A model generated the notes under the pieces. It worked only from the letters and a program-made list of their open reading frames with translations, had not been told where the DNA came from and did not search any database. From NCBI GenBank assembly GCA_028277985.1, contig JANQFG010000050.1, forward strand, positions 1 to 45,494: DNA of 45,494 nt, written 5' to 3'. Positions 3,862-36,650 of the stretch are shown piece by piece. Within the stretch, counting starts at the first letter, position 1. Each line of letters begins with the position of its first letter. The position numbers and the translations under genes are program-made. Source of the stretch: a bacterium (GTDB lineage: Bacteria > Desulfobacterota > DSWW01).

Positions 3862-4551
3862 CTAAGGAGAAAACAGCCCCTCGCATTCCGTGAGGGATTC
3901 GGTCCCCAAGAGCCCCAGATCCAGGGAGTAGCCTGCCACCCCCCGGCATGAGAAACGAATCCGCACGGCCAGAGGTTCCCCCGGGAGGGCTTCTGCTTCC
4001 AGCTCGCGCCTGACTGCGTGGTCGTTGTCGTACCGCAGGATCCGCCATTCGTCCGGCCCATCGAAGATCAGGTCCGTCGTGCCGGAAGGGCCTTCCCTCC
4101 ACCGGCAGACCTGACGTCCCTCATCGTTTCGACCGGTTTGTGAAAGAATCCCCTGAGGCACCAGGAAAATCAGGCTCACGTCGTGCATCAGGCCCTCTGG
4201 AAATCCTTCCCGATCCATAGGTGGAACCGCCCGATGCACGGTGATCTCCTCGGCCCGCGATGAGGCATCGAACAAAGTGATCCCCTCGAGGGACAGGATC
4301 ACGGCCCGGATGCTGCGCGACGAAGGGTCCACCACCGTGACGCCGATAACGGCACTCTCATGGCCGAAGGGACCGGAAATGTGGATTGTGTGCACGGCGC
4401 GCCATGGCCTGGTGGGAAACGGCCGCAGGCAGAACCCCGTTGCTTCGGTGCGAAGCGCACCGGAGGGGGGGGTGAGTTCCGGCAGGCGGCTGCAGCCGCA
4501 GAGAGACAGAGCCAGGGCACAGATGAGCGGTAGGCGGCGGACAGCCTCCAT
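3862..4551 (-). CDS. DUF3261-type outer-membrane lipoprotein of aryl-polyene loci
   Basis: Seen: a short signal segment MEAVRRLPLICALALSLCGC ends in a lipobox (LCGC), followed by about 205 residues of beta-rich sequence with a conserved-looking VHTIHISGPFGHES stretch. Known: aryl-polyene clusters usually encode a DUF3261 lipoprotein next to a LolA-like carrier, and that is its position here. Inferred: it receives or anchors the lipid product at the outer membrane, in the way LolB receives lipoproteins. The frame stays open to a TTG at 4650, 6 bases after the LolA stop, but the start at 4551 places the signal peptide properly at the N-terminus. Family assignment rests on lipobox, size and context rather than on a decisive motif. 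Confidence 0.7.
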   Translation of the reverse strand: MEAVRRLPLICALALSLCGCSRLPELTPPSGALRTEATGFCLRPFPTRPWRAVHTIHISGPFGHESAVIGVTVVDPSSRSIRAVILSLEGITLFDASSRAEEITVHRAVPPMDREGFPEGLMHDVSLIFLVPQGILSQTGRNDEGRQVCRWREGPSGTTDLIFDGPDEWRILRYDNDHAVRRELEAEALPGEPLAVRIRFSCRGVAGYSLDLGLLGTESLTECEGLFSP

Positions 4552-4656
4552 CGCAGCTTTCACAGATCTTAGCAATGAACCGCGTTGGCTGTTGCCTTCG
4601 GTCCGGCAAGGGTCGCCGCCGGGAGGATCGATGGTGTCAGGATATTTCAAGGCGTC

Positions 4657-5295
4657 TCACCCTGATATTTCTTCGAAGATATCGTTTCCCAGCGGAACGT
4701 TGATCTCCGTGCTTCGGAATTCGATAAGGGTGGAATTGCCCGGGCTTTCCACGATTTCCACCGAATCCAAAACGCCCGGTCTGTGGGACAGGGTCAGTAT
4801 GACCCTCTCGATGAAGGAGGAGACCGAGTCCTCCCGGGGGAGGAGGATCACCCGGACAGGCTGGCCGGGCACGAGTTCAGCGCGGAAATGGGGGCTGGAT
4901 TCGAAGTCCCCGGTGAGCCAACCACTCATGTTCTGGAGGACTTGACCCATGGCCTCCAGGCCGGGATCCGTCTCTCGAATCCAGGAGGCTTCCCTCTTCA
5001 CGAATCGTTTCACGTCCCCACCTTCGACCAGCAGGATACTTTCGATGGGGGATGTGTACTCCCAGCGGAAATCGCCTGGCGCCCGGAAGAAGAAGCGCCC
5101 TTCCGAGACGAGGGGTTTCCTGAGTATCTTCAGCTCCTTCTTTTGGGAGAACTCGGTCCGGATGGACGCGACGGAAGCGAAGTGTCTGCGTACCTGGAGC
5201 CACAGGTTTGACCCGGTTTCCGCCGGCGACGGTGGGGCCAGGACCAGAAAACCGAGGAGTATCGTCAAACCGGACAACCCCGCTCCTTTCTTCAT
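4657..5295 (-). CDS. LolA-family periplasmic lipid/lipoprotein carrier
   Basis: Seen: 212 residues with a Sec signal peptide (MKKGAGLSGLTILLGFLVL, cleavage likely after SPA). The LolA pattern follows: FASVASIRTEFSQKKEL, then GRFFFRAPGDFRWEY, ESILLVEGGDV and a hydrophobic beta-sheet core. Known: APE loci carry a LolA-like protein proposed to ferry the product across the periplasm. Inferred: it works with the MMPL exporter and the DUF3261 lipoprotein as the export route. The start at 5295 has a good GGAGAG ribosome site 5 bases upstream. The 288 bases between it and the next upstream gene hold no convincing gene. Confidence 0.85.
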   Translation of the reverse strand: MKKGAGLSGLTILLGFLVLAPPSPAETGSNLWLQVRRHFASVASIRTEFSQKKELKILRKPLVSEGRFFFRAPGDFRWEYTSPIESILLVEGGDVKRFVKREASWIRETDPGLEAMGQVLQNMSGWLTGDFESSPHFRAELVPGQPVRVILLPREDSVSSFIERVILTLSHRPGVLDSVEIVESPGNSTLIEFRSTEINVPLGNDIFEEISG

Positions 5296-5583
5296 AAACT
5301 CTCCGTCTTCACTGGTGTCTGGAATCCTTCGTTGGAACCGCCCATCGTGCCCCCCGGATCCTAACATAAGTTCGGATAGAGGATAAAGCAGACCGGGGCA
5401 GCCGATTGCATGCACATCGGGCGTTTTGTGAACCTTTCGCGTGTTCTTGTGCGACCCGCTTCTTTGTCATCAGGGGCGCGCAGTGCTCGGCGCCGGCTTG
5501 GAAACGCGGCGTAAGAAATACCTGGCCGTGACAAGACTGCTTTTCGACAGGAGGGATCTTCCCCAAGGGGACCACGCTTTCGT

Positions 5584-9292: not shown

Positions 9293-9544
9293 CTACAACC
9301 GGTTCTCTGCGATGTACCGGGCCAGAGTACCCAGGGTGACAAACACTTTTTCGCCCAGTTCCCTGTTTTCGATGGAAACGCCGTAGGTCTCCTCGATCAT
9401 CACCGCCAGTTCCAGGATGTCGATGGAGTCCAGGTTCAGGCCGTCATCAAAGAAAGACGAATCCTCCGTCAACCCGGCCGGGTCCACGTCGGTGAGGTTC
9501 AGCGTCTCGATAATGTTGGCTTTTAGTTCGTCTAAGAGTTCCAT
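9293..9544 (-). CDS. acyl carrier protein
   Basis: Seen: 83 residues of a four-helix carrier protein with the phosphopantetheine site LNLDSIDILEL (Ser at about residue 40), an acidic helix II and the typical YGVSIENREL turn. Inferred: it carries the growing chain for the KS-CLF fusion encoded immediately downstream. The in-frame extension upstream to 9589 has no carrier-protein character. A promoter lies about 60 bases upstream, so this is the first gene of the ACP, KS-CLF, radical SAM, LolA, DUF3261 unit. Confidence 0.9.
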   Translation of the reverse strand: MELLDELKANIIETLNLTDVDPAGLTEDSSFFDDGLNLDSIDILELAVMIEETYGVSIENRELGEKVFVTLGTLARYIAENRL

Positions 9545-9609
9545 TCTTTCAACCCGGCTCAGGCAAAGCTCTGTCGAAACCTCTCCCACGGGGATGGTGA
9601 GACCTCTTA

Positions 9610-10876: not shown

Positions 10877-10906
10877 CACCGTTTCTCCATAGATTTTTCT
10901 GATCAT

Positions 10907-12187: not shown

Positions 12188-13681
12188 TTAGATTGTATCA
12201 AGATCCTTAAATTCATTCACCCTCGCGAGCCGGGCAAGCACACGCTGGTGTCGGCCTTCCCAACCGAGTTTTCGCAGTGTCCTATTAACAAAGAACCTTA
12301 GCACAGGCCGGAAGACATGGATCCAGAAACCGGTCCAGGCACGCCCTTGCTGTCTGCGTGCCCGCATAGAGGGGTTCCACCAGCCCAGTATCCTTTGCCG
12401 GTGATACCAGAACAGATACTGCAGCCTGTCTGTTTCAAGATGTCTGGTTCTCACATTCGCCCACAACCCCGTGTAGCGTTCAAAGTTTTCCTTGTTGGTA
12501 ACGAGACCCTCGCTGATCAGGGCTGTTCGTATCTCGGTCTTGGGATATGGCGTCAGAATCTGGCAGATAGCCCCATCCGCGCCTACGTCTTTCAAGAACT
12601 GATAGTTGTCCACGATGTCCTGCTCGTCGTCGTCCGGGAAGCCAAAAATGAGCCCGCCGATCACCATCATTCCGTGTTTCTGGCAGATCTGCACCGCCCT
12701 CCTCGATGCTTCAACCGTATTGCCCTTGTGTGCAAGATCAAGGTTCTTCCTGGAGGCATTCTCTATCCCGAGAAAGATCGTTCGGAATCCTGCGAGGGCC
12801 ATCTTTTCAACCATTTCCTCGCTCTTGGCGACGGAAATACAATCTGCCTGAACGATGAGGTTCAGGTTCTTGTATTTCCTCTCGGCAATGGCGTCGCAGA
12901 GGGCCATGACACGTTTCGGGCTGAGCACAAAGTTGTCATCAACAATGAACACCCCCCGGGTTCTTCGCTTGTAGTAAATGTCATCCAAGTCCGACAGGAC
13001 TCGCTCGATCGGAAAGGTCCGGAAGGTTCTCCCGTACATGTGCTTCATGCTGCAAAAGTTGCATGATCGCGTGCAGCCCCTGGACGTTTCCATGACTTCG
13101 ACCTTGCTCGCGACAATATGGTAGCCCCATGTCAATCGCCTTCGGTCGCGGATGGGCAGCTTGAGAGTAGACAGATCCAGAGGTTCCGCTCTCTTGTTGT
13201 GTACGAACTCTTCGCCTTGCCTGTACGAGAGGGAAGGGATGTCCTCAAACCTGTCCCTGCCAGCCAGCGCATTCACGAGGCGGCGGCTCGCCTCTTCGCC
13301 TTCGCCCCGAATCAGGAAGTCGAACCATTTGGCCTCCGGAGAGGCCGCGATTTCCTCACCCATCAACGTGGGGTGATAGCCCCCGACAACGACCTTCGTA
13401 TCGGGTAGAATCTGCTTGATCAGCTTGGCCACTCTGGTACAGGTATGGTACTGCCAGGCCATGGAGGACAAACCGACAAGGTCCGGGTTGATCTTCTTCA
13501 GCGTGCTTGTCAAGTAGCTTCGGATTCGGCGCCGTTTTCTGACGAGATCGATGAGAAAGACGGCGTGCTCGGGATCGATATTCCCTCCCACGCTCGCAAT
13601 TCCCAGGTTGGGCATGTGAACAGCAGCCTCATGGATGACGATGGGCGTCACATCCGGCATGGAAATCAATACGACCTTCAA
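12188..13681 (-). CDS. B12-binding-domain / radical SAM protein
   Basis: Seen: 497 residues; the N-terminal Rossmann part includes DLVGLSSMAWQYHT and VVVGGYHPTLMGEE. The radical SAM motif CTRSCNFC lies at about residues 203-210, then FIVDDNFVLSP and GLIFGFPDDDEQD. The basic C-terminal tail includes a WTGFWIHVFRPVLRFFVN stretch that could touch the membrane. Known: B12-domain radical SAM proteins of the P-methyltransferase/cyclase group act on unreactive carbons, including lipid tails. Inferred: it tailors the hydrophobic product. Translation probably starts at TTG 13681, which has AAGGGA 5 bases upstream. It is the last gene of the ammonia-lyase operon and lies 51 bases after a second protein of the same class. 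Confidence 0.8.
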   Translation of the reverse strand: MKVVLISMPDVTPIVIHEAAVHMPNLGIASVGGNIDPEHAVFLIDLVRKRRRIRSYLTSTLKKINPDLVGLSSMAWQYHTCTRVAKLIKQILPDTKVVVGGYHPTLMGEEIAASPEAKWFDFLIRGEGEEASRRLVNALAGRDRFEDIPSLSYRQGEEFVHNKRAEPLDLSTLKLPIRDRRRLTWGYHIVASKVEVMETSRGCTRSCNFCSMKHMYGRTFRTFPIERVLSDLDDIYYKRRTRGVFIVDDNFVLSPKRVMALCDAIAERKYKNLNLIVQADCISVAKSEEMVEKMALAGFRTIFLGIENASRKNLDLAHKGNTVEASRRAVQICQKHGMMVIGGLIFGFPDDDEQDIVDNYQFLKDVGADGAICQILTPYPKTEIRTALISEGLVTNKENFERYTGLWANVRTRHLETDRLQYLFWYHRQRILGWWNPSMRARRQQGRAWTGFWIHVFRPVLRFFVNRTLRKLGWEGRHQRVLARLARVNEFKDLDTI

Positions 13682-13732: not shown

Positions 13733-15040
13733 CTACGCCTGGGTCGTCTTGCGGGTTGTCCCTGTTCCCTTTTCGTCCGTCTGCTCCTGCTCTTGCTTCG
13801 CACTTCGCAGCAGGGTTCTCCGTCTACGGATGGAATCCTTGATCACGTCCATGAAAAGTTCGCTCATGCGCACGGTCTGAGATCGCTCCGCATAGAAGGA
13901 TCTCCACGCCTGCTCGTAGAGTGCCTGCAGCCTCTCCGGGCTCATGTGCCGGGGCTGAAAGACAACCTTGGCCGCGTTGTACGCCTCCCAGTTCCGGTCG
14001 AGGATGCGGCCCTTGCTTTCCAGTTGGCGCCGGATCTGCGTCTGCGGGAAGGGTGTCAGGATCGTGAACTCGGCCAGGTCCAGGCCGATTTCCAGCAGAA
14101 AGTCGATGAGCCTCAGGATGAAATCCTCGGTGTGGTCGTCCAGGCCCAGCAGGATGGTGCCTTCCACCTTGATCCCGTGATCGTGCATCATGACGATCCG
14201 GTCTCGGATCTTGTCCGAGATGGTGTAAATCGCGTGGTACACGTACCAGCAGCCGGCGTCCCGGGCCGCCCTGAGCACATCCGGCCTGCAGGTAAGGGGG
14301 TGGGAGATCCACTTGCGGCCGGCTTTCTCGAACCCGTAGTCCCTGAGCGCTTCGAACAGCTCCAGCTGAGCCTTGATGCTCTGCTCCATGGAGTTGTCCA
14401 CGAAAAAAACGAGCTCTCCGCATCGGTCCAGGTCACGGAGCACCAGGTCCAGGGGGCGTATCCGGTGCCGGCGGCCGCCCAGGAAGGAGACGCAGCAGGG
14501 GGGACAGTTGAAGCGGCAGCCCCGGGAAGTCTGCACCAGGTCAGGCAGTTCCCAGCCCTTGTACGCGTAAAGCTCTTGCTTGCGGTAGAGATCCCGCCTA
14601 GGGTCGGGCAGGCGGCGGATGTCCGGGAACTCGCCTTCAGGGTGGCGGTAGATCTTCTGGAGGCGCCCGGCCTGGAAGTCCTTGATCATCTCCTCGACCA
14701 GGCCTTCGCCTTCCCCCACGCAGAGAGCATCCACGTGTCCCGTCGCCTCTTCCGGACAGAGGGTGGGGTGCAGTCCGCCCATGATCACGGTCCTGCCCCG
14801 GCGCCGGAATGCATGGGCCAGATCGTAGGCCCGGGGCGCCTGACAGGAGAGCAGGGTGGAAAGAGCAATTACGTCAGCGTCCGTTTCCAGATCAACGGGC
14901 TCCACGTTCTCGTTCAGCACCGCGACCTCCACGCCGTCCGGCACGCAGGCCGCGGCCTGGATCATGCCGAGCGGAGGGAGGTTGAATTCGGTCTGCTCCG
15001 GGATCTTGGGCCACCGAGGGTGGATGAAAAGGACCTTCAT
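13733..15040 (-). CDS. B12-binding-domain / radical SAM protein
   Basis: Seen: 435 residues; N-terminal domain with MKVLFIHPRWPKIPEQTEF, NLPPLGM and VIMGGLHPTLCPEE. A radical SAM cluster motif CRFNCPPC sits at about residues 175-182, followed by FFVDNSMEQS and GTILLGLDDHTEDF. The end is Lys/Arg/Gln-rich and looks disordered. Known: the LPPLGM entry is typical of class B/C B12-type radical SAM enzymes. Inferred: together with the next gene it forms a tandem pair with successive modifying steps, because the two are only distantly alike. The ATG at 15040 has an AGG-containing site just upstream; an earlier in-frame start at 15085 is weaker. Confidence 0.8.
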   Translation of the reverse strand: MKVLFIHPRWPKIPEQTEFNLPPLGMIQAAACVPDGVEVAVLNENVEPVDLETDADVIALSTLLSCQAPRAYDLAHAFRRRGRTVIMGGLHPTLCPEEATGHVDALCVGEGEGLVEEMIKDFQAGRLQKIYRHPEGEFPDIRRLPDPRRDLYRKQELYAYKGWELPDLVQTSRGCRFNCPPCCVSFLGGRRHRIRPLDLVLRDLDRCGELVFFVDNSMEQSIKAQLELFEALRDYGFEKAGRKWISHPLTCRPDVLRAARDAGCWYVYHAIYTISDKIRDRIVMMHDHGIKVEGTILLGLDDHTEDFILRLIDFLLEIGLDLAEFTILTPFPQTQIRRQLESKGRILDRNWEAYNAAKVVFQPRHMSPERLQALYEQAWRSFYAERSQTVRMSELFMDVIKDSIRRRRTLLRSAKQEQEQTDEKGTGTTRKTTQA

Positions 15041-15172
15041 GGCACCTGCCTTGTGGATGAACCGCCACGGAAGACCACTTGTCAATGGGTCCCCTGGTGA
15101 TGCCTGCCGAAAAACCTTTGTTCCTGCGCTATGCGACAGTGTATAGTACCCGGGCAGCCGGGTCGAGTAGGA

Positions 15173-22523: not shown

Positions 22524-22583
22524 ATGAGCAAAAAGATGGAGACGGGTGCTTTCCGGCAACCGGGAAAGGAGAGTTCCTTTTGA
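22524..22583 (+). CDS. possible 19-codon leader peptide coupled to the AMP-ligase
   Basis: An ATG at 22524 has AGGA 6 bases upstream and encodes 19 residues (MSKKMETGAFRQPGKESSF). Its TGA at 22581-22583 overlaps the TTG start of the AMP-ligase (22580). Inferred: translation of the short frame could set ligase expression by coupling. A chance frame cannot be excluded. Confidence 0.25.
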   Translation: MSKKMETGAFRQPGKESSF

Positions 22584-25426: not shown

Positions 25427-26695
25427 CTATGACACTCCCTTCAGCACCACGCAGCAGTTGGTTCCTCCGAAACCGAAGGCGTTGGTGAGGCAGATCTCCA
25501 CCGCCCGCTTCCGTGCCTCGTTGGGCACCACGTCCACACCATCTAGGGCCGGATCAGGAATGTAGTTGATGGTGGGAAGCAGGATGCCCCGCCGCATGCC
25601 CTCGATGGTGAGCACCGCTTCAATGGCGGCGGCGGCACCGAGTGTGTGCCCCACCTGGGATTTATTGGAGGATATGGGTAGGTTTTTCAGATTGTCACCC
25701 CAAATTTCTTTCAGACATTGCACCTCCGTGATATCCCCCCGCGGGGTGCTGGTTCCGTGCGTATTGATGTATTGGATGTCCCCGGGTTTCAGGCCGGCAT
25801 CTTCCAGGGCCTCCATCAATGCGCGGATGATGGTCGGGGGATTTGGTCGTGTGACATGGCAAGCGTCGGATGTCCAGCCTACGCCCAGAAACTCGGCCCG
25901 GGGGGAAAGGCCGTAGGCGGAGAGCATCTCCTCCGCTGCCAGAACCAAGACGGCGGCGCCCTCCGACAAGACGAACCCCTTGCGGTCCACGCTGAACGGC
26001 CTCGATGCCTGGGAAGGATCATGGAAGGCACGATCTTTTCCGCGCATCTTGATGGTGGCATTCATGTTGGCGAAGCCGTGGACGATCTCCGGGGTGATGG
26101 GCGTGTCCACCCCGCCGGCGAGTACGAAGTCACAGTCGCCGTCCCGGATCATGCGCGCGCCGATGCCCATGGCATGGTTGCCCGAGGCACAGGCCCCTCC
26201 CGGGGAAAAAATGGGACCGGTGAAGCCCAGGAGGCTGCCCGCCTTCCCGGAAGGCACGTTGGAGCAAAGGTTGGGAAGCAGATAGGGGCTGACGAGGTTG
26301 GGACCCCTCTGGGCCAAGCTCTGGACGGCGATCCCGTAAGCGTCAGACCCGTTGAGGGCCGATCCGATGAGGCAGGCCGTGCGGGGCCGGATCTCCTCCA
26401 GGTTCAGGATTCCCGCATCAGCCATCGCGTCCCGGCAGACAGCCATACTGAGCGGGACGAAGCCCGCATTCCAGAAAGATGCCTCCCGGGCGTTGAAGAA
26501 ATCCAGGTCTGCCTGATCCCAGTCCGAGATCTCGCCCACGATCCTGCAGGGGGTATCCACACGGCAGCGCGTGATCGGGCCAAACCCCGCCTCTCCGTTC
26601 ACCGCCCGTCTCCACGTCTCTTCGAGGGTTTTTCCCAGGGGAGTGGCGGCCGCATAGCCCACAATGTAGACCCGTCTGTTTTTCGGTGCTTTCAT
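25427..26695 (-). CDS. FabF-type beta-ketoacyl-ACP synthase
   Basis: Seen: 422 residues with nucleophile Cys 169 (GGACASGNHA), His 313 (NTHGTSTPRGD) and Lys345/His350 (NKSQVGHTLGA); ends with NAFGFGGTNCCVVL. Known: FabF-type enzymes condense malonyl-ACP with acyl chains. Inferred: it extends the chain in the aryl-polyene-type pathway, with the dedicated thioesterase and dehydratase encoded immediately downstream. It is 56 bases downstream of a radical SAM gene, giving a radical SAM-KS pair that is repeated at 28764-31151. Confidence 0.9.
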   Translation of the reverse strand: MKAPKNRRVYIVGYAAATPLGKTLEETWRRAVNGEAGFGPITRCRVDTPCRIVGEISDWDQADLDFFNAREASFWNAGFVPLSMAVCRDAMADAGILNLEEIRPRTACLIGSALNGSDAYGIAVQSLAQRGPNLVSPYLLPNLCSNVPSGKAGSLLGFTGPIFSPGGACASGNHAMGIGARMIRDGDCDFVLAGGVDTPITPEIVHGFANMNATIKMRGKDRAFHDPSQASRPFSVDRKGFVLSEGAAVLVLAAEEMLSAYGLSPRAEFLGVGWTSDACHVTRPNPPTIIRALMEALEDAGLKPGDIQYINTHGTSTPRGDITEVQCLKEIWGDNLKNLPISSNKSQVGHTLGAAAAIEAVLTIEGMRRGILLPTINYIPDPALDGVDVVPNEARKRAVEICLTNAFGFGGTNCCVVLKGVS

Positions 26696-26751: not shown

Positions 26752-27747
26752 TCACCAGGGTATGTACTTGTAGAGCTTGGCGAACATTTCGTAGACCTCG
26801 ATCCAGTTCTTGAGGTCCCTGGCCGTCCGTATATGAGCGCGCTTGTTCACCATGATCCAGCTCATGTGCGCGGCGCCGTCCTTGCATGTGGTGCAGTCAC
26901 GGGTCGCGGACGTGCAGCACCGGTGCATGGTCTTCAGATCCGCTCCCCAGCGGATGAAACGGATGAGACGCTTGGGCTGCGGGTTTCTCTTGTCCAAGGG
27001 TTCGGTGACCGAGGGGCACTCCGAGAAGCCCCACCTGCGGCCGAGCAACATGCCGGTGGTGATCACTTCGTGATAGTAATGACTCGAGATCACCGTTTTC
27101 GGGAACTTGTCTAGAAGAGAGTCCATTTCCACTCGCGCGCGGGTCAACTGCTCGGGGGTCCACGAGAAGCCGGCGGCTCCCTCGTCGTTGCTCAGGAGTT
27201 GCAGGTGGACCTTCAGCCCGCAATCCTCAATCTTCATGACGACATCTTCGGCGCGTCCAAGCTGTTTTGGAGTTAGGGTGTAAAGGTAATAGGCATTGGG
27301 ATCCCCGGCGTAGTTCTTGCGGGAGATGGAGAAAACGTCACGGCCCCGCAGGGAGATCTCGTCCTCGGAACTTCCCCATAGGGAGATTCCCACTATCATG
27401 TCCGGAAACCGGTCCCGGGGGATCTTGATGATGCCGTTGGTGGCACAGTAGGAGGGTATACGATCGTGGAATGCTTCCACCCGGTCCAGAAACAAGGTCG
27501 GCTCCCCTCCGATGAGGATAGCGAGGTTGACCCCTCGGTCCTTCTCGCGGTCCACAAACGCTTCCCATTTCCGGATGTCGGTTTCTTCTGTCACATGCTG
27601 TTCACCTGAAGAGAAGAAGAAGCAACCCCGGCATCGCAGGTTACATTGGTTGGTTACGTCGTAGATCGAGCTCCGGATGTTTAGACGGGAGATGCGGTCG
27701 TAGCGCTCTCGCCAGTCCTTGTCAAGAAGCGAACTCACGGTAATCAT
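26752..27747 (-). CDS. radical SAM protein with C-terminal CC-Cys-Cys cluster
   Basis: Seen: 331 residues; radical SAM motif CNLRCRGC (Cys 35, 39, 42) with DVTNQ before it, GGEPTLF for SAM binding, VGISLWGSS in the barrel. A C-terminal CCTSATRDCTTC group (Cys 277, 278, 285, 288) may bind an auxiliary FeS cluster. Known: proteins of this build with an extra cluster use a radical to modify small molecules, peptides or lipid intermediates. It is a clear paralogue of the protein at 30084-31151. Each lies just upstream of a ketosynthase gene in the same operon. Inferred: acts on the carrier-bound chain. Substrate not predictable from sequence. Confidence 0.8.
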   Translation of the reverse strand: MITVSSLLDKDWRERYDRISRLNIRSSIYDVTNQCNLRCRGCFFFSSGEQHVTEETDIRKWEAFVDREKDRGVNLAILIGGEPTLFLDRVEAFHDRIPSYCATNGIIKIPRDRFPDMIVGISLWGSSEDEISLRGRDVFSISRKNYAGDPNAYYLYTLTPKQLGRAEDVVMKIEDCGLKVHLQLLSNDEGAAGFSWTPEQLTRARVEMDSLLDKFPKTVISSHYYHEVITTGMLLGRRWGFSECPSVTEPLDKRNPQPKRLIRFIRWGADLKTMHRCCTSATRDCTTCKDGAAHMSWIMVNKRAHIRTARDLKNWIEVYEMFAKLYKYIPW

Positions 27748-27812: not shown

Positions 27813-28748
27813 CTACCTGAAACGGTACCCGACGCCCAGCATGCCGAAGGTTTCCCGGACGTCGTAGAATTGTCCCATGCTGGAGAACCCATTAAAGAAT
27901 GAGAGAAAAGCCCACTGGCGGTTCTTGACTTTGCGGGGATTGCCTAGCCACACCCCCCACTTGGCCGCAACGTTAGGGGTCCAGTCGTTTTCTTGTCGGG
28001 ATTGCAGGTCCAGGGCTGCAAACATGTTGAGTTTCCAAACCTGGAATGTGTCTTCTACACCACCCTGCAGCGTGAAAGAGTGTTCGATGTCCTCGGGCAG
28101 GGCGTGAAGCGTGAAGGAAAGCCCGCCGTAGATCCGGCCGCCCCTCCAGGCCCGGGCATACATGAATCGTGCCTCCTCCTTTCCGTAATCGATCCGGGTA
28201 TCGAGATGGTGATCGAGTCTCTCGTCGCCCAGGTGAGAACTCTGGTGGAAAACCAGAAGCTCGAAGCTGTTTGGCGCTTGGTCGTATCCCAAGGCCAGCC
28301 CGCCCAGAAAATCGATGTTCAACAGGTTGAAAGACTCGGAAAAGACGTCGAAACGGGATGAGACCAACCCGCGCACGGAGAGTGACAAGCTATTGTTTGA
28401 CGGGAAGCGCGCCCACAAAAGGCCCAGGTCCCCACCAAAGGTAATGTCCGCATCCCACCTCTGGTCTTGCCCCTCATAAAGGAACCCCAACCGAAAGAGG
28501 GCCTCCATGGGATCCGCCAGCAGAGGCTGGAAAACCCTGCCTCTACTAGAGAACCAGATCCATTCCGTGTCGGGGACTATCTCCGGAGAGTGCGGAGGAA
28601 CGGGATTTTCGATCCGTTGGAAGGAGGTGCCGGTTTCCGCCGGGGGTAAGGGGCTGTGGTCAGCAAAGACCGGGGAGCATGCGCCTTGGACGAAGAGCAG
28701 TAGGCCCGGCAGGATCTTTCGGAGAAGGGAGGACACAACGTTGGCCAT
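27813..28748 (-). CDS. DUF1207-family outer-membrane protein
   Basis: Seen: 311 residues, with a Sec signal segment (RKILPGLLLFVQGACSPVFA), then FQPLLADPMEALFRLGFLY, LVFHQSSHLGDE and strands such as IYGGLSFTLHAL and the C-terminal FGMLGVGYRFR with an aromatic-basic end. Known: DUF1207 proteins are beta-rich exported proteins of unknown function with the LADPMEALF and HQSSHLGDE features. Inferred: an outer-membrane component of the product pathway, because it is inside the ACP-rSAM-KS operon, 15 bases after the upstream ketosynthase gene. Not seen in standard APE loci. Confidence 0.75.
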   Translation of the reverse strand: MANVVSSLLRKILPGLLLFVQGACSPVFADHSPLPPAETGTSFQRIENPVPPHSPEIVPDTEWIWFSSRGRVFQPLLADPMEALFRLGFLYEGQDQRWDADITFGGDLGLLWARFPSNNSLSLSVRGLVSSRFDVFSESFNLLNIDFLGGLALGYDQAPNSFELLVFHQSSHLGDERLDHHLDTRIDYGKEEARFMYARAWRGGRIYGGLSFTLHALPEDIEHSFTLQGGVEDTFQVWKLNMFAALDLQSRQENDWTPNVAAKWGVWLGNPRKVKNRQWAFLSFFNGFSSMGQFYDVRETFGMLGVGYRFR

Positions 28749-28763: not shown

Positions 28764-30014
28764 TCAGGAAACCCGGTGAAGAACGATGCACGAATTGCAC
28801 CCCCCGAAGCCGAAGGCGTTCTTCAGCACGAAATCCTGGTGGACGTGCCTTTTCCCTTCCGGGACCACATCCAGTTCCAGTTCCGGGTCCGGGGTGTAGT
28901 TGATGGTGGGGGGCAGCAGCCCGTCCCTCATCCCGAGGACGGCGAAAATGGTTTCCAGGGCGCTCGATGCACCCATGGCGTGACCGAGAAGCGATTTGTT
29001 GGCGGTCACAGGCGGTATTCCTTGGTCGAAGATCTCCTGCAGAGCCTCGTGCTCTACCCGATCCCCCACCTTCGTGGACGCAGCATGGGCATTGACGGCC
29101 TGGATATCCCCCGGCCGGATTCCTGCGTCACCAAGGCTTTCTGCGATGCATCGGCTGACGGTCTTCAGGTTGGGGGCAACGAAGTGATGGGCATCCGACG
29201 TCATGCCACAGCCGGCAACCTCCACGGAGAAAGCAAGTCCGTGTGTCCTGGCGAAGTCCCGGGTAGCAAGGAGAATGCAACCGGCCCCCTCGGAAACCAC
29301 AAAACCCCGGCGGTCAATCGAGAAGGGGCGGCTGGCTCTTGAGGGGGGCTCCTCCGGCATGGCCGGAGAAGAGCGGAAGGCGCCGTTCATTGTGGCGAAA
29401 CCGGCAACGACTGGCTCAACCAATGCGAAGTCCACCGCCCCGCAAAGGACCAGATCGGCCATTCCCCGATCGAGGAACATGGTTCCCAGGATGAGAGAGG
29501 TGACGCCCGTAGCGCACGCTGTAATCGTTGCCGCGATGGGGCCCGTGGCATTCGTGAGGATGGATACTTTTCCCCCGATCATGTTGATACAGCTATTGGG
29601 ATTGGTGAATGGATGCGGGAGCTTCCCCTCTCGTATCATGCGGCGGTCCGCGTGCAACACCGCATCCTGACCCCCCACTGCGGAACTGAAAGTGATGGCG
29701 ACCCGGGGGGAAAGACTCGGCGTGATCTGGATGCCGCTCTTCTCAAGTGCCCTGTGAACCACCACCATGCCGTGCTTGAAGATGGGAGAGGTCCAGTGAG
29801 CGAGCTGACGGGGAGACAAGAAAGGGTAAGGGCTCACATCGAACTCCGGCACTTGGCCGGCGACTCGGACGGGAAAATCATCGGGGATGGGAAAGCGGGT
29901 CAGGCCATCGATGCCACTGTCTCCCCGGAGAGCGCATTCCCACTGGGTTTCCAGGTCTACGCCCAGGGGCGAGACCATGTCGTATCCTACAATAACCGCT
30001 TTTTTCAGACCCAT
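28764..30014 (-). CDS. FabF-type beta-ketoacyl-ACP synthase
   Basis: Seen: about 416 residues with nucleophile Cys (TITACATGVTS, about residue 167), His in NAHAASTKVGD, and Lys/His in NKSLLGHAMGAS. The His motif reads HAAST rather than the usual HGTGT, but the catalytic His is kept. The end NAFGFGGCNSCIVL is typical. It is the second condensing enzyme of this operon and sits 69 bases after a radical SAM gene, repeating the arrangement at 25427-27747. Start: ATG 30014 has an AGGG-containing site; GTG 30020 is also possible. Confidence 0.88.
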   Translation of the reverse strand: MGLKKAVIVGYDMVSPLGVDLETQWECALRGDSGIDGLTRFPIPDDFPVRVAGQVPEFDVSPYPFLSPRQLAHWTSPIFKHGMVVVHRALEKSGIQITPSLSPRVAITFSSAVGGQDAVLHADRRMIREGKLPHPFTNPNSCINMIGGKVSILTNATGPIAATITACATGVTSLILGTMFLDRGMADLVLCGAVDFALVEPVVAGFATMNGAFRSSPAMPEEPPSRASRPFSIDRRGFVVSEGAGCILLATRDFARTHGLAFSVEVAGCGMTSDAHHFVAPNLKTVSRCIAESLGDAGIRPGDIQAVNAHAASTKVGDRVEHEALQEIFDQGIPPVTANKSLLGHAMGASSALETIFAVLGMRDGLLPPTINYTPDPELELDVVPEGKRHVHQDFVLKNAFGFGGCNSCIVLHRVS

Positions 30015-30083
30015 GAGCACCCTAAGGGTTCGTGATGCCTGGAGCCTTCAGCCGACTGCAGTCATGATGGGAATCGTCCGCTT

Positions 30084-31151
30084 TCAGTAGATTTCGTGGC
30101 GGGGTGGCGGCACCAGGTCCTCGGAAAGATTTTCGCCCTTTTCGTATCCCATAACCCACACGGCCAGATATGTATCCACGTAATCGAGCCAGGATTTGAA
30201 GGTGGCCGGATCTGTCGAGTGTCTGTAAAGGCGCGCCGTGACCACGGCGCTTCCCGAAGCATAGTGCCGGCAGTCGGCACAGTCCGTGTCCGGTACGCAG
30301 CAGGCTGCACGACGGTCCCAGCTCAGATCCGCCCGGTATTGTCGGAAGGATCGACCCAGACCGATGTCCCGGGAGGGGTTCATCCGGGGGTAAGAACAGG
30401 CATACAGATCGTGCAGACCGAGACGATGCGTGTGCGCCACGGCGTTGTACCGGGAAAAGAGCGTGTGTTCAGGAAAACGGGAAAGCAGGTCTTGCATCAC
30501 CTCCCTTGTCCGCCGGAGGGATCCCGGCGTATGGCGGAGGGATCCCCGGTAGCCTACCGGGGCGGAAAAGACGTTGAAGGTGGCTTTGCAGCCGCTTCGG
30601 GAAATCTGTTCCATCACCCCGTACACTTCATCGATGTTCTCCCGGGTGAAGGTGTACACGAAAACGGCGCGAGGGTCGCCCTCGTAGTTGTGTATCTGTC
30701 TCCGCAACATGTCCCGAGCGCCCCGGGTCTTCTGGCTCGTGTGGTCGTTTCCCCACACGGAAATGTGGATACTGTAGCCGACGGATTCGGAAATACGATT
30801 CAGCCCGTTGGTGGCAATACTGCCCAGGGGCATCTCCTGGTGACAGACCTCGAGCAAATCGGGGACAAGGGAGGGCTCGGCCCCGGCGAGCACTACGTAG
30901 GTGATGCCTCTTTCTTTCTCTTCTTGCATAAGCCTGCGCCAAGCTTCTGGATCGCGGTTTTCCTCCAAGAACTGCTTGTCACCCTGATAATAATAGCAGC
31001 CGTCGCAGCGGATGTTGCAGCGGTTCGTCATATCGTAGGTGGATTCCCGGAGAAAGAAGTAGTTGCGGACCTTCTGCCACCTCTCCCGGACCCGGGGTTC
31101 CGCCAGGATATCGGAAAACCTCCACGCTTGAATTTGAACTGCCTGCGACAC
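30084..31151 (-). CDS. radical SAM protein with C-terminal CC-Cys-Cys cluster
   Basis: Seen: 355 residues; DMTNRCNIRCDGCYYY carries the CxxxCxxC motif (Cys 45, 49, 52), AGAEPSLV takes the GGEP position, then IHISVWGND and ATNGLNRI. CCVPDTDCADC (Cys 284, 285, 291, 294) is the probable auxiliary cluster site. It shares a block plan and many identical positions with the protein at 26752-27747, so the two arose by duplication. It is the second gene of the operon, 149 bases after an ACP gene and directly upstream of a ketosynthase gene. Inferred: modifies an ACP-bound intermediate. The GAEP in place of GGEP is unusual. Confidence 0.8.
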   Translation of the reverse strand: MSQAVQIQAWRFSDILAEPRVRERWQKVRNYFFLRESTYDMTNRCNIRCDGCYYYQGDKQFLEENRDPEAWRRLMQEEKERGITYVVLAGAEPSLVPDLLEVCHQEMPLGSIATNGLNRISESVGYSIHISVWGNDHTSQKTRGARDMLRRQIHNYEGDPRAVFVYTFTRENIDEVYGVMEQISRSGCKATFNVFSAPVGYRGSLRHTPGSLRRTREVMQDLLSRFPEHTLFSRYNAVAHTHRLGLHDLYACSYPRMNPSRDIGLGRSFRQYRADLSWDRRAACCVPDTDCADCRHYASGSAVVTARLYRHSTDPATFKSWLDYVDTYLAVWVMGYEKGENLSEDLVPPPRHEIY

Positions 31152-31300: not shown

Positions 31301-31561
31301 TCAGAGTCTGTCCCGGATGTAGTCGGCGATGAGACGGATGCTTGAAAGCTTCGGGTAGTCGTCCTCGTCGATTATGATTTCGTATTCGTCCTGGAGGTGG
31401 AGGGCCACCGTGGCCAGTTCCATGCTGTCGATACCCAGTTCGTCTACCAGATCGAGGTCCAGATCGAACGTTTCCGGAGTTACATCCTCCAGCTTCAGTT
31501 CCTTGATCATGATCTCGACCACGCGAAGAATGAGGTCGTCCATCGAGATGTCTTTCGGCAT
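31301..31561 (-). CDS. acyl carrier protein
   Basis: Seen: 86 residues with phosphopantetheine site ELGIDSMELATV (Ser 46), a long acidic helix 1 and 2 region (DVTPETFDLDLDLVD) and LSSIRLIADYIRDRL at the end. Inferred: carries intermediates for the two ketosynthases and radical SAM proteins of this operon. It is the first gene of the unit. The nearest promoter on the same strand is about 350 bases upstream. Confidence 0.9.
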   Translation of the reverse strand: MPKDISMDDLILRVVEIMIKELKLEDVTPETFDLDLDLVDELGIDSMELATVALHLQDEYEIIIDEDDYPKLSSIRLIADYIRDRL

Positions 31562-32160: not shown

Positions 32161-32895
32161 ATGGAAGAGAAGGAAGGGAAAGTAGCCATCGTGACGGGGG
32201 GAAGCCGAGGCATCGGTCGTGCGATCTCCCAGGAACTCGCCGGAGTGGGTTATCACGTCTTTGTGAACTACAAATCCAACCGCGCGGCTGCGGAGGAAAC
32301 CCTGGAGAGCATTCGAAGGGCGGGTGGGGACGGCGAGGCCGTGGCATTCGATGTAACGATGGGTGAGGAGACCATATCTGCGGTGAACGAAATGCACGCA
32401 CGCTTCAACCGGATCGACGTGCTGGTGAACAATGCCGGCATTACGGCGGACGGTCTGTTCGCTTTGATGCCTGAGAAGGATTGGGACTCAGTGATCACCA
32501 CCGCCCTGAAGGGGTTCTACAACGTCACGAAACCTGTCCTGGGGAAGATGCTGCGGAAGAAGCGGGGAGCGATCGTTTCCCTGTCTTCGCTGGCCGGATT
32601 GATCGGGAACCGGGGACAGGCGAACTACTCGGCGGCCAAGGCGGGGCTCATCAGCGCCAGCCGTGCCGTGGCCCGGGAGGTAGCCCGGCTGGGGGTGCGT
32701 GTCAACGTGGTGGCTCCGGGGTTGATCGAGACGGAAATGATAGCGAAGGCTCCGGTGGCAACCATCAAGGAGATGATCCCTATGGCGAGGATCGGAGAAC
32801 CGGAAGAAGTGGCCCGGGTGGTGCGATTTCTATGTTCCGAGGATGCCTCGTACATCACCGGCGAGGTTGTTTCGGTCAACGGGGGGATGTACTGA
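32161..32895 (+). CDS. FabG-type 3-ketoacyl-ACP reductase
   Basis: Seen: 244 residues, NADP-binding TGGSRGIGR (12-20), NNAGI (90-94), catalytic Ser about 142, Tyr156 and Lys160 (YSAAK) and VAPGLIETEM. The usual catalytic Asn in the TNL position reads Ala (VITTALKGFYN), so the tetrad lacks its Asn. Known: APE loci carry one ketoreductase of this type. Inferred: reduces the 3-keto group before the dehydratase acts. The ATG at 32161 has GAGAGGGG 6 bases upstream; upstream ATGs at 31993 and 32134 are in frame but less likely. It is the only biosynthetic enzyme of this block on the plus strand. Confidence 0.9.
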   Translation: MEEKEGKVAIVTGGSRGIGRAISQELAGVGYHVFVNYKSNRAAAEETLESIRRAGGDGEAVAFDVTMGEETISAVNEMHARFNRIDVLVNNAGITADGLFALMPEKDWDSVITTALKGFYNVTKPVLGKMLRKKRGAIVSLSSLAGLIGNRGQANYSAAKAGLISASRAVAREVARLGVRVNVVAPGLIETEMIAKAPVATIKEMIPMARIGEPEEVARVVRFLCSEDASYITGEVVSVNGGMY

Positions 32896-33117: not shown

Positions 33118-33903
33118 TCATGGGAGGTTCTCGGGGGTCCGGCCCTCGGGGAAATAGAGAGCACGCACGTTTCGGATTAATTCGGATCGGGACGAGACGC
33201 CCTCCGTGGATGCCGTGGAGATAACACCGAGGTGTTCAACGTGGAGCGTGATCTTTTCCAACGCTCGGAACGCAAACTTTCCCGGGGGGAACAAGCGTTG
33301 TGTATTCCGGATGCGAAGCACGTGGATCGGTGCGTGGAATTTCCTTGCCAGGGTGAACGCGCCCTTCCCAAAAGGGGCAAGTGTGCCGTCACGGCTCCTG
33401 GTTCCTTCCGGGAAGATGAACAAGTTTCCCCCGGAACTGAAGAACGTCTGCATCGAATCCATATTCCGGATCATGATAGGTGCGCACTTTCCGGAACCGG
33501 AAGACGGGAGATACCCGGATGTGCGCAGAATCCATGAGAAAAACGGATAGTCGAAGAACTTGCTCTTGACAATGGTCCTTTGTCTGGGAAATAGGGAGAT
33601 GAGCAGAATCGGATCCAGGAAGGACAGATGGTTGCTCACGATCACGGATGACCGAATGGAGAGGACGTCCTCATCGACCCGGATTCGAAGCCCCAAGATG
33701 ACGGTGCGGGCCAGGAGCAGGAATCCCCGGTAGAAGCAGTGGTTGAGCTTTTGAAACGCCGTTTCTCTGTCACGCAAAAAGAGAAAACTGAGCAGGTAGA
33801 ACCAGACAAAGAAGAGCAGAAATCCGACGGTGAAGTATATGTACAGGATCGTCGAAACGGCGACCTCGAGGAAGCGTCGGAAAGGCGTCGGAAAGGCCGT
33901 CAT
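33118..33903 (-). CDS. PlsC-type lysophospholipid acyltransferase
   Basis: Seen: 261 residues, two N-terminal hydrophobic segments (STILYIYFTVGFLLFFVWFY), the NHX4D catalytic motif SNHLSFLDP (His 92, Asp 97) and the FPEGTRS glycerophosphate-binding motif (164-170). Known: PlsC-like enzymes move an acyl chain from ACP or CoA onto a lysolipid. Inferred: attaches the fatty or aryl-polyene chain to a glycerol-type lipid in the inner membrane, complementing the LpxL-like enzyme at 15173. It starts 10 bases after the stop of the upstream ketosynthase gene, same operon. Confidence 0.88.
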   Translation of the reverse strand: MTAFPTPFRRFLEVAVSTILYIYFTVGFLLFFVWFYLLSFLFLRDRETAFQKLNHCFYRGFLLLARTVILGLRIRVDEDVLSIRSSVIVSNHLSFLDPILLISLFPRQRTIVKSKFFDYPFFSWILRTSGYLPSSGSGKCAPIMIRNMDSMQTFFSSGGNLFIFPEGTRSRDGTLAPFGKGAFTLARKFHAPIHVLRIRNTQRLFPPGKFAFRALEKITLHVEHLGVISTASTEGVSSRSELIRNVRALYFPEGRTPENLP

Positions 33904-33913
33904 GAGGTCCTCG

Positions 33914-35146
33914 TCAGGCTCGTTTGAGAATCAGGATCGTGTTGACTCCTCCGAAAGCGAAATTCTGGATGGCGGCAATGGACAAGGGAACTCTCTCCAG
34001 ATTTCTTACGTGCCGGATCATGGCGCACCGCTCGTCCACATGGTCCAGGTTCAGCGTGGGGGCTAGAACTCCTTCCTTCAGCATGTACAAGGTGAGAACG
34101 GTCTCGATGACTCCGCAGGCGCCCATGGTGTGCCCCATGTAGCTCTTAAGAGCGGTCACATGTGGCCCGTAACCATAAACGGCATGGATGGCTTTGGCTT
34201 CGACGATGTCACCCATCGTGGTTGCCGTGGCGTGAGCGCTGACGACGTCCACGTCCTCGGGGCGGATGCCGGCGTTCCCGAGGGCCAGCTTGATGGTCTG
34301 GATGATCCCGTCTTTGTTTGGCAGGATCAGGTCGCCACCGTTGTTGTTACAAGAGAAACCGACAATTTCTGCAAGAATATTCGCCCCCCGCTTCTTGGCG
34401 GACTCGAATTCCTCAAGCAGGACGGCACCCGCGCCTTCCCCCACCACAAGACCGTCCCGGGCCGCGTCAAAGGGGCGCGGGGTCAGTTGCGGGGTTTCAT
34501 TATAGGCGTTGGAACACGCCAGCAGGTTGTCAAAAACCGCCACAGTGGTCGTGTCGTACTCGTCCGCGCCGCCGCAAAGCATGGCGTCCTGCATGCCGAA
34601 CTTGATCGCTTCGTAGCCGTATCCGATGGACTGGCTGCTGGTGGTACAAGCAGTGCATGAGGAAATGATGCGGCCCGTGATGCCGAACATTTTAGCGATG
34701 TTCACGGCCGTGGTGTGCACCATGGATTTCAGGTAGTCAACAGCTCCGATGGAGGAGAAGTTACCGGGAGAATCGCTGAAGAAGACCTTGTATATGTCCC
34801 TCTGTACCGTAGGGCTCCCGTGAGTGGAACCGAAGGCGATCCCCAGGCGGCCAGATGTCACAAATTCTCGGTCCAGGTCCGCCACTTCCAGGACTTCCTT
34901 TGCCACCTGGCAGGCGTAGAAGGACACAGGGCCCATCGTTTTCCGGTATCGGCGTTCAAAGTCGAAAGGGATATCGTAGTCGACGGTACCGAAGACCCCG
35001 CAGTGGATATGGCGTGCCAGCAGGTCATCCTTGCGCAGCGGCTTGACGCCAGAGACTCCCTGGAGCAGACTCGAGACGATTTCTTTCTCGGAATGTCCGA
35101 TGGGGGTGATGGCGGATGCCGCCGTGATAACGACTCTTCGTTCCAT
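33914..35146 (-). CDS. FabF-type beta-ketoacyl-ACP synthase
   Basis: Seen: 410 residues with nucleophile Cys167 (SSCTACTTSSQ), His305 (SAHATATTMGD) and Lys334/His339 (LKSYMGHTMGA); C-terminal NFAFGGVNTILIL. The His motif HATATT differs from HGTGT but keeps His and the following Thr. Inferred: the initiating or elongating condensing enzyme of the ACP-KS-PlsC unit. It is the fourth KS in the window and is distinct from the two in the 24-31 kb operon. Start ATG at 35146. Confidence 0.9.
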   Translation of the reverse strand: MERRVVITAASAITPIGHSEKEIVSSLLQGVSGVKPLRKDDLLARHIHCGVFGTVDYDIPFDFERRYRKTMGPVSFYACQVAKEVLEVADLDREFVTSGRLGIAFGSTHGSPTVQRDIYKVFFSDSPGNFSSIGAVDYLKSMVHTTAVNIAKMFGITGRIISSCTACTTSSQSIGYGYEAIKFGMQDAMLCGGADEYDTTTVAVFDNLLACSNAYNETPQLTPRPFDAARDGLVVGEGAGAVLLEEFESAKKRGANILAEIVGFSCNNNGGDLILPNKDGIIQTIKLALGNAGIRPEDVDVVSAHATATTMGDIVEAKAIHAVYGYGPHVTALKSYMGHTMGACGVIETVLTLYMLKEGVLAPTLNLDHVDERCAMIRHVRNLERVPLSIAAIQNFAFGGVNTILILKRA

Positions 35147-35198
35147 GTTGCTCTCGGGACAGAACTTCGCGTGACAACTCTTTTTCAGGGACGCGGGA

Positions 35199-35456
35199 TC
35201 AGCACTCTTGCGCTCGGGAAATGGATTCGATGTAATCCAGGATCTGGTTGGTGGTCCGGATTTCCATCGCGCTCTTCTTCTCCTCCTGGGTGAGTTCGAA
35301 GTTCAACAGAATCTCGATTTCACCGAGCAACTCGATGGCATCGATGCTGTCGAACCCGTGGAGTTCTCTCAGGTCGTCATCCAGCCCCGGGTTCTCGATT
35401 TCGTAAAGGTCCTCAAAGATCTTCAGAAGAAAATCCTTGTGTTCATCCCGTGTCAT
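35199..35456 (-). CDS. acyl carrier protein
   Basis: Seen: 85 residues with the phosphopantetheine site HGFDSIDAIELL (Ser 37), preceded by an acidic loop DDDLREL. The preceding in-frame extension to 35588 looks non-coding. It is the third carrier protein of the window and lies 52 bases upstream of the ketosynthase gene, probably first in the ACP-KS-PlsC unit. Three ACPs suggest separate carriers for starter, chain and modified intermediates. Confidence 0.88.
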   Translation of the reverse strand: MTRDEHKDFLLKIFEDLYEIENPGLDDDLRELHGFDSIDAIELLGEIEILLNFELTQEEKKSAMEIRTTNQILDYIESISRAQEC

Positions 35457-35651
35457 CAGCCTGGCCCCTTGCGGTTTTCCAGTAACGGATTTCGGGAAGG
35501 ATCCTAAACGAGTGGGGGAGAAAAAGGCGAGGTACCCCTCACCACTCTGATCAGGACGAAGTATAGGTGGGGGGGGGTACCGTGTCAAACGGAGATGAAT
35601 CCGCCCATGCAGGGCGTTTCGTCGAAAAACGAAGCGAGGGGCTGATCCGAC

Positions 35652-36650
35652 CTACCTTGCGTGTTTCTTGAAGAATTGCCAGGTGATTTCCGCTGCGTCG
35701 AACTCGAGAAAAGGGTCTCCCGGTTCCAATGCCTCTGTGGTGAATGGCCTTCCCGGCCAGACGTGTCCCCATTCCTTGAGCGTGTAGAGTACTACTTCCG
35801 TGTTGTTGCAGCAGTTCTTCCAGGTGCGCAGGGTCACGGCGCCTTTCATGATTTCCCGGGTTTCCGGGGGGGCCTCGCACCCATCGCTCCGTGCCCAGAA
35901 CCTGGCCGATTCTTCTGCTGAAAGGTATTCTCTGGTCCCGGGTTTCCCGCCGACACTGCCGCCCATGTACGGGATCTGCTCGTCCAGCATACCGTGCATC
36001 AAGAGGACCGAAACAGGAACGGCTGGGTCGGGAATACGCCAGAGGGGGTGCTTCGCGTCTTTCCTTCCCCCAACCGATCCGGCCAGAGGTGCAACGGCGG
36101 CCCACACCTCGGGCTTTTCGGCGGCCAGGCGGTGGACCAGCATCCCTCCGTTGGAGAATCCGACGGCATAGATGCGTCGTGGGTCCACGTTCAGCAGCTT
36201 CCGGACTTCGTCCAACGCGGCTATCACAAAACCCACGTCATCGACCTGGTCCCTGGCGGCCTTACCGCAGCAGTGGCCCGCGTTCCAGTGCTGGAGAATT
36301 CCGAAAATGCCCATGCCATTCGGGTAGAGGGCGATGAATCCCTCTCGGTCGGCCAGTTCGCTGAACCTGGAATGCTTTTCCATCTCCCGGGCCGTGCTGA
36401 AGGCGCCGTGCAGGATCACCACAAGGGGCCAGTGCCTGTCCGGGGTGTAGGCTTGGGGTACGTGAACCCGGTAGCTTCGGCGGAATCCGCCGGCACGAAT
36501 ATCCATCTTCCGGTCCAGGGTGGCGCCGGGGTGCAAGTTACCCTTCTTCGAGGTTGTGGCACAACCGGCCAAGTCCATGACCAGAAGCACAAGAACAGCT
36601 ATCCAGGCGCATCTTGGTCGTGGGAAACAGGAGAGGGCGGTCCTGTCCAC
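35652..36650 (-). CDS. secreted lipoprotein esterase (PHB depolymerase / feruloyl-esterase-like)
   Basis: Seen: 332 residues; N-terminal signal VLVLLVMDLAGC with lipobox (LAGC), alpha/beta-hydrolase oxyanion VILHGAFS, nucleophile motif GFSNGG, DDVGF and a late LMHGMLDEQIPY with the catalytic Asp region; terminal KEWGHVWPG with His. Known: members of the LpqC/PHB-depolymerase family hydrolyse polyesters or aryl esters. Inferred: trims an ester of the exported lipid at the envelope, or is simply a neighbour. The start is GTG 36650. It is upstream of the ACP gene by 195 bases, same strand, so co-transcription is possible. Confidence 0.78.
   Translation of the reverse strand: MDRTALSCFPRPRCAWIAVLVLLVMDLAGCATTSKKGNLHPGATLDRKMDIRAGGFRRSYRVHVPQAYTPDRHWPLVVILHGAFSTAREMEKHSRFSELADREGFIALYPNGMGIFGILQHWNAGHCCGKAARDQVDDVGFVIAALDEVRKLLNVDPRRIYAVGFSNGGMLVHRLAAEKPEVWAAVAPLAGSVGGRKDAKHPLWRIPDPAVPVSVLLMHGMLDEQIPYMGGSVGGKPGTREYLSAEESARFWARSDGCEAPPETREIMKGAVTLRTWKNCCNNTEVVLYTLKEWGHVWPGRPFTTEALEPGDPFLEFDAAEITWQFFKKHAR

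Follow-up and report, generated by a model that had tools for sequence, protein, structure and literature searches.

Gene content of the cluster

The window analysed here is the whole of contig C233 (JANQFG010000050.1; 45,494 bases) of a draft genome from the Desulfobacterota (8.85 Mb over 291 contigs; completeness 95.69%, contamination 7.85%), and it carries aryl polyene (APE)-type genes together with genes for five radical S-adenosylmethionine (rSAM) proteins. Genes were called and annotated using Pfam and NCBIfam profile scans (Table 1). Three of the rSAM proteins (rB12a, rB12b and rB12c) have a B12-binding domain, and the other two (rCa and rCb) have a CxxxCxxC motif and a C-terminal CC-x5-C-x2-C motif, in agreement with a preliminary description of this DNA. 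Also confirmed were three acyl carrier proteins (ACP1 to ACP3), four ketosynthase (KS) genes, one of them a fusion with a chain-length factor (KS-CLF), a ketoreductase (KR), an ammonia-lyase, a ligase, acyltransferases, a family 2 glycosyltransferase (GT2), an MMPL exporter and a LolA-like carrier.

The left boundary, previously placed at position 3862, had to be moved: the conserved gene set is 284-35588, since the FakA-FakB-type (Fak) fusion and the deacetylase-methyltransferase gene on the left recur with the same genes elsewhere and so belong to it. Of the thioesterases (TE) described, one is a 4HBT thioesterase, but the second is a PHB-esterase-like hydrolase whose membership is doubtful, because just 2 of the 63 loci compared below contain a counterpart. 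Candidate genes for the polyketide synthase (PKS)-type dehydratase (DH) and the DUF3261 lipoprotein were located, although both matches fall below the Pfam cut-offs (15.6 against 22.3 bits for the latter, E 0.015). The genes had also been assigned to the same operons; most do lie on the minus strand, but those for the ligase and KR are on the plus strand.

Table 1. Positions of the cluster genes and of two genes rarely present in relatives' loci, with the evidence for each assignment
Feature	Position	Strand	Evidence
FakA-FakB-type fusion (Dak2, FakA-like middle, DegV); predicted acyl kinase	284..2065	+	Pfam; PDB matches FakA, FakB/DegV
Polysaccharide deacetylase fused to methyltransferase domain	2072..3691	+	Pfam; counterpart in 36/63 loci
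DUF3261-like lipoprotein (weak)	3862..4650	-	Pfam 15.6 bits, sub-threshold; counterpart in 13/63 loci
LolA-like carrier (ApeL-like)	4657..5415	-	Pfam; ApeL 31% over part
rB12a, cobalamin-binding rSAM, family TIGR04072	5584..6939	-	370.4 bits against cut-off 360; tree
KS-CLF (ApeO-ApeC-like), 724 residues	7091..9265	-	ApeO E 7e-48; ApeC profile E 4e-11
ACP1 (ApeE-like)	9293..9589	-	Pfam; ApeE 43%
rB12b, cobalamin-binding rSAM	12188..13681	-	Pfam; PDB matches TokK, OxsB
rB12c, cobalamin-binding rSAM	13733..15085	-	Pfam; adjoins lyase module in 12/16 neighbourhoods
LpxL-like acyltransferase (C-terminal half of ApeJ)	15173..16036	-	Pfam; ApeJ 28%
MMPL exporter (ApeM-like) fused to C-terminal methyltransferase domain	16033..19134	-	Pfam; ApeM 22%
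GT2 (N-terminal half of ApeJ)	19209..20072	-	Pfam; ApeJ 34%
4HBT thioesterase (ApeK-like)	20260..20748	-	Pfam; ApeK 35%
Aromatic ammonia-lyase, ASG cofactor motif, Phe-His selectivity pair	20691..22226	-	Pfam 512 bits
AMP-forming acyl ligase (ApeH-like)	22580..23977	+	Pfam; ApeH 29%
PKS-type dehydratase, weak assignment, true start probably internal	24083..25132	-	Below Pfam cut-offs; counterpart in 43/63 loci
KS1	25427..26695	-	Pfam; active residues 54/54
rCa, rSAM with second four-cysteine motif	26752..27747	-	Profiles and motif; within ~2 kb of rCb in 20/20 genomes
KS2	28764..30020	-	Pfam; active residues 63/63
rCb, rSAM with second four-cysteine motif	30084..31151	-	Profiles and motif; seven cysteines 84/84
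ACP2	31301..31561	-	Pfam; adjoins rCb in 62/63 loci
KR (ApeQ-like), start approximate	32179..32895	+	Pfam; ApeQ 45%
PlsC-like acyltransferase (ApeD-like)	33118..33903	-	Pfam; ApeD 28%
KS3 (ApeR-like)	33914..35146	-	ApeR 40%, E 2e-99
ACP3	35199..35588	-	Pfam; adjoins KS3 in relatives
PHB-esterase-like hydrolase, membership doubtful	35652..36650		Counterpart in 2/63 loci
DUF1207 gene	27813..28748		Counterpart in 1/63 loci

Conserved order and co-occurrence of the genes

Named genome contigs were scanned with rCb, giving 287 relatives, and the best 80 of the 287 (69-76% identical) were kept; these were labelled Syntrophaceae, Smithella, Desulfobacteraceae, 'Deltaproteobacteria', Spirochaetes and, once, Planctomycetota. 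Seventeen of the 80 were shorter than 9 kb and were omitted, and the other 63 loci were compared gene by gene with the window. As the loci stop at 10 kb flanks or at contig ends, the gene counts obtained from them are lower bounds. The core order ACP2-rCb-rCa-KS2-KS1-DH recurred in named loci of several phyla, with counterparts of rCb in 63 loci, ACP2 in 62, rCa in 60, KS2 in 52, rB12a and KS1 in 49 each, ACP1 in 47, DH in 43, the deacetylase in 36, KS-CLF in 26, TE in 25, KR in 20, rB12c and LolA in 14 each, and rB12b in 13. The arrangement was looser in Desulfobacter vibrioformis (L090), where rCa is ~7 kb from rCb and not adjacent to it, and where the only lyase relative detected is 31% identical. 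The rCb of G031, a genome of the window's own phylum, was 88-90% identical to those of the Syntrophaceae, Smithella and 'Deltaproteobacteria' loci, in keeping with an assignment of this phylum to the Desulfobacterota. Catalytic residues were intact in the relatives of KS1 (54/54), KS2 (63/63), KS3 (8/8) and KS-CLF (26/26), as were the corresponding residues of rB12a (56/56), rB12b (6/6) and rB12c (26/26); the seven cysteines of rCb were kept in 84/84 and those of rCa in 71-72/73, the rest lying outside the alignment.

In a sample of 297 genomes of the window's phylum, its own included, an rCb orthologue (63-74% identical besides its own) was found in 20 genomes from 9 families, and in all 20 rCa lay within ~2 kb of it, the rCa frame of G473 containing one internal TAG. 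A KS3 (ApeR) orthologue (68-76%) was present in 19 of these 20 pair-positive genomes and in 0 of the other 277, and the cluster-type lyase (52-55% besides its own) in 9 of the 20 and 0 of the 277, corresponding to one-sided Fisher p values of 5e-29 and 4e-12. G019 was left out of both the 20 and the 9. Lower-identity matches were excluded from these counts, namely 23 of 32 for the lyase (33-47%) and 9 of 28 for KS3 (40-44%), the latter including G426, the one pair-positive genome without an orthologue. Since KS3 and the lyase are often distant from rCb or on other contigs, their co-occurrence goes beyond mere linkage. Several layouts occur, of which the compact one in the window is an example, and in G015 a ligase adjoins rB12c at the lyase's usual place. 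Comparison across related genomes, which the preliminary description had proposed, thus placed the rSAM genes in a conserved neighbourhood, both in gene order among the 63 loci and in co-occurrence across the 297 genomes.

The ammonia-lyase was followed in 49 rCb-positive genomes, from 49 of a set of 50 loci taken from the 80, and 31 of these genomes contained some member of the aromatic-lyase family, HutH-like members counted. Twenty lyase neighbourhoods were fetched, from 19 of these 31 genomes and from G031. Sixteen contained a cluster-type lyase (51-56% identical to that of the window), accompanied by a DegV/FakA fusion in 16/16, GT2 in 14 and rB12c in 12; the others were L159 and L160 (43-44%) and L161 and L162 (31-33%). 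The selectivity pair was Phe-His in 17/17 cluster-type relatives, which suggests phenylalanine as the predicted substrate. Tyrosine lyases have the pair His-Leu; tyrosine aminomutase has Ser-His, and Phe-Leu occurs in the lyase structure 2o78, which we take to be a mutated tyrosine lyase whose original pair was His-Leu. The Fak fusion shares its Dak2, middle and DegV domains and the DGD motif (kept in 18/18) with the fatty acid kinase FakA-FakB, but in the window a single protein combines both subunits, and its gene is part of a polyketide-type cluster.

Some observations fell outside this pattern. In G107 and G106, which hold the rSAM pair, another aromatic lyase (L159 and L160; 43-44%, Gln-His loop) adjoins ketosynthase genes and may mark a second type of aryl cluster. 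G019 contains a distant rCb relative (33%; C23:105921-106919) and a 47% lyase (C30:242676-244094) with no KS3 orthologue, possibly a divergent version. Within the window cluster, two lipoprotein-like genes and an outer-membrane-like protein (9689-11705) had no counterpart among the 63 loci, and a gene for aldehyde ferredoxin oxidoreductase, with two methyltransferase genes after it (37722-42310), apparently lies outside the cluster. The host assembly is 8.85 Mb, compared with 4.7 and 3.8 Mb in two genomes of the same genus, a size that together with the 7.85% contamination may point to a composite bin.

Comparison with aryl polyene and ladderane-type clusters

Thirty-three window proteins were compared by sequence and by profile with apeA-R of E. 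coli CFT073, using the gene functions given in the available text of PMC8253772. Relatives of 11 of the 18 ape genes were found: ApeR, ApeO, ApeC, ApeQ, ApeH, ApeK, ApeJ, ApeD, ApeE, ApeM and ApeL. The best solved structures for KS3 were 7f27 and 4ewg; in the part of PMC8358021 available, 7F27 is reported and 4EWG is named as an ApeR homologue. KS1 and KS2 were 29-33% identical to ApeR/ApeO. Among the export genes, the relatives of ApeM (22%) and ApeL (31% over part) were accompanied by a sub-threshold ApeN-type DUF3261 match. Neither of the hot-dog dehydratases ApeI and ApeP had a match among the window proteins, which contain instead the sub-cut-off PKS-type dehydratase, and no match to the rSAM proteins, lyase, dehydratase or Fak fusion was found among apeA-R. 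Compared with the E. coli CFT073 cluster, the window thus adds five rSAM genes, the lyase, the Fak fusion, KS1/KS2, ACP2 and the dehydratase; its ApeO and ApeC are fused, and its ApeJ is split into the GT2 and LpxL-like genes. The window KR, LolA and lyase also resemble the flexirubin models FlxA, FlxB and LolA2, all under the curated cut-offs (316/700, 303/340 and 84/125 bits).

The second point of comparison was the ladderane-type clusters. According to the available text of PMC2649909 (Rattray et al. 2009), clusters with rSAM and phytoene-dehydrogenase-like genes occur in Kuenenia, Desulfotalea psychrophila, Geobacter and Pelobacter. Those of D. psychrophila are DP1853-DP1860 and DP2405-2406, and despite the related cluster this organism yielded no ladderanes under the conditions used. 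'Ladderane' clusters of unknown function in the Desulfobacterota and other phyla are mentioned in PMC9902471, and ladderane biosynthesis is described as still open, with anammox bacteria lacking a pure culture, in PMC2649909 and PMC9821293 (parts of each text). Four genomes (G195, G275, G324 and G229) were taken as anammox-like from their paired hydrazine-synthase-alpha-like genes (~810-830 aa) and, for G195 and G275, also from cluster layout; hydrazine-synthase relatives occur outside anammox bacteria as well (PMC12758564, available text). Approximately 40 kb around each of their TIGR04072 loci was inspected. The clusters of G195 and G275 contained relatives of rB12a, rB12c, the deacetylase (weak), the ketosynthases, MMPL and GT2 together with a CrtI-like gene, and a KR relative was present in G195 only. 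The sole counterpart in the stretches of G324 and G229 was rB12a.

The lyase, the Fak fusion and the rCa/rCb pair were not found in the ~40 kb around these loci, and the three features are therefore on the window side only in the comparison with the two clusters. The pair had no match at E 1e-15 in the anammox-like genomes, and 5 of 294 Planctomycetota genomes matched. The non-B12 rSAM proteins beside TIGR04072 in G195 and G275 matched the rCa/rCb profiles weakly (22.8 bits at most). In the tree, which carried a long-branch warning, the window rB12a belonged to a clade of 57 rows (100/100) that excluded the four anammox-like rows. As the preliminary description had noted, no phytoene-desaturase-like gene was found among the scanned window proteins, in which the window differs from the anammox-like clusters; the best candidate in the genome was 25% identical to a relative's cluster copy. 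A CrtI-like gene is present in G040, where it lies between KS-CLF and rB12a, in G047, and in 7 of the 80 named loci.

The rSAM proteins, a proposed pathway and its alternatives

A profile search of the rSAM proteins, suggested earlier as a check, gave a divided result: rB12a passed TIGR04072, named 'lipid biosynthesis B12-binding/radical SAM protein' (the 'ladderane' family), but rCa and rCb fit no named rSAM family. By sequence rCb is nearest SkfB and PqqE; its predicted fold is nearest BlsE and SkfB, and that of rCa nearest SkfB, SuiB and BlsE, so that the models support an rSAM fold for both. Their conserved cysteines would be consistent with a second iron-sulfur cluster. Their genes lie between those for an ACP and two ketosynthases, which makes an ACP-bound chain the probable substrate. 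The PDB matches of rB12b were TokK, OxsB and an apramycin oxidoreductase, which makes methyl transfer or rearrangement by this protein plausible.

Related rSAM genes were also seen in other settings. L060, L062 and L110 each have two adjacent rB12a-like genes (46-48% and 38-39% identical to the window rB12a) beside the rSAM core. Elsewhere in the host genome, contig C72:1-60000 (L208-L210) contains 19 rSAM matches within ~54 kb, and 11 of its open frames resemble rB12b; the six neighbours scanned included three glycosyltransferases and one O-antigen ligase, giving it the appearance of a saccharide cluster crowded with rSAM enzymes.

We read positions 284-35588 of the window as a conserved cluster that joins APE genes to five rSAM genes and whose product would be an aryl- or aroyl-primed polyene lipid, modified by the rSAM enzymes and exported to the outer membrane, and we give this reading a probability of roughly 0.58 on the basis of the genes, their intact catalytic motifs, the conserved order and the co-occurrence across genomes. 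The substrate of the ammonia-lyase would be an aromatic amino acid, probably phenylalanine, and its deamination would give an acid of the cinnamate type, which in genomes lacking the lyase would come from elsewhere. This acid would be activated for the carrier protein by the ApeH-like ligase, and perhaps also by the Fak fusion, by way of an acyl phosphate. A conjugated chain would then be built by the ApeR-like ketosynthase and the ApeO-ApeC fusion together with the ketoreductase and the PKS-type dehydratase, KS1 and KS2 carrying out a further set of condensations with ACP2. The rCb/rCa pair may act on the chain while it is bound to ACP2, and it may be methylated or rearranged by the three cobalamin rSAM enzymes. 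The ApeD-, ApeJ- and LpxL-like enzymes would attach the acid to a lipid or glycan, and the MMPL, LolA and DUF3261-like proteins would carry the product outwards. All of these steps, as well as any ring closure or C-methylation, we infer from the gene content.

Several results weigh against this reading. ApeA, B, F, G, I, N and P are matchless among the 33 window proteins, the dehydratase is sub-threshold in Pfam (22.9 against 27 bits and 21.6 against 23.7 bits), and the structure models of rCa and rCb point to no reaction. No lyase was present in any of the 63 loci, which reach at most 10 kb to either side; 11 of the 20 pair-positive genomes lack the cluster-type lyase, and of the nine that have it, four carry it on the same contig as rCb. 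KS3 is less than 20 kb from rCb in 6 of 19 genomes, on another contig in 12, and 1.7 Mb away in the single-contig G015. The pair, KS3 and the lyase are all missing from the two congeneric genomes (93% and 85% complete), and the p values given above are uncorrected for kinship.

The same separation of the modules, and the pair-positive genomes without the lyase, would suit two products sharing an export line, a plain aryl polyene and a separate rSAM-modified fatty acid made by ACP2-rCb-rCa-KS2-KS1, which might come together only as the two acyl chains of a single lipid. We consider this unlikely because the ApeR orthologue is tied to the pair in the 297 genomes and never occurs alone in that sample. 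Rather, from this co-occurrence the APE genes and the rSAM pair are best read as one pathway, though its parts are often unlinked, and the lyase, missing from more than half of the pair-positive genomes, as an optional branch supplying the starter.

A ladderane-type pathway, with ring closure to cyclobutanes by the rSAM enzymes and the lyase feeding a side branch, would account for the membership of rB12a in TIGR04072 and for the relatives of rB12c, the deacetylase, the ketosynthases, MMPL and GT2 in the two anammox-like clusters. Such a pathway appears improbable, given that the window lacks a phytoene-desaturase-like gene, that the anammox-like non-B12 rSAM is so weakly related to rCa/rCb, and that D. 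psychrophila, with a related cluster, yielded no ladderanes according to the available text of PMC2649909. A profile search of the whole host assembly gave 125 rSAM matches, and in so rSAM-rich a genome the rSAM genes might be chance neighbours of an ordinary aryl polyene cluster; with the gene order kept in 63 named loci of several phyla and the co-occurrence of 19/20 against 0/277, this is very improbable indeed. A bolder form of the one-pathway reading, which we regard as speculative and rather doubtful, is that rCb/rCa are a new rSAM system by which an aryl polyene carried on an ACP is converted to a ladderane-like aryl lipid with fused rings, and that the ladderane pathway branched off from an anaerobic route to aryl polyenes, a cyclised membrane lipid having taken the place of the pigment through the action of radical enzymes.

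The locus had been called an undescribed hybrid. The hybrid reading, an APE set with predicted radical tailoring, is well supported, but the TIGR04072 family is already named and rSAM lipid clusters were published in 2009 (PMC2649909, in the text available), and this part is known. What is new is a variant of the aryl-polyene pathway that overlaps ladderane-type clusters and has more genes than first noted; no description of an aryl-polyene and rSAM hybrid was recognised among the literature matches listed, judged by titles and abstract openings. The cluster shares genes both with ladderane-type clusters and with the aryl polyene pathway, whose enzymes are known, and if the proposed pathway is correct, strict anaerobes make aryl-polyene-type lipids. 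The rSAM pair is present in many bacteria, mostly of anaerobic groups, and because these include named isolates such as D. vibrioformis DSM 8776, its predicted acyl-chain radical chemistry could be studied in culturable bacteria.

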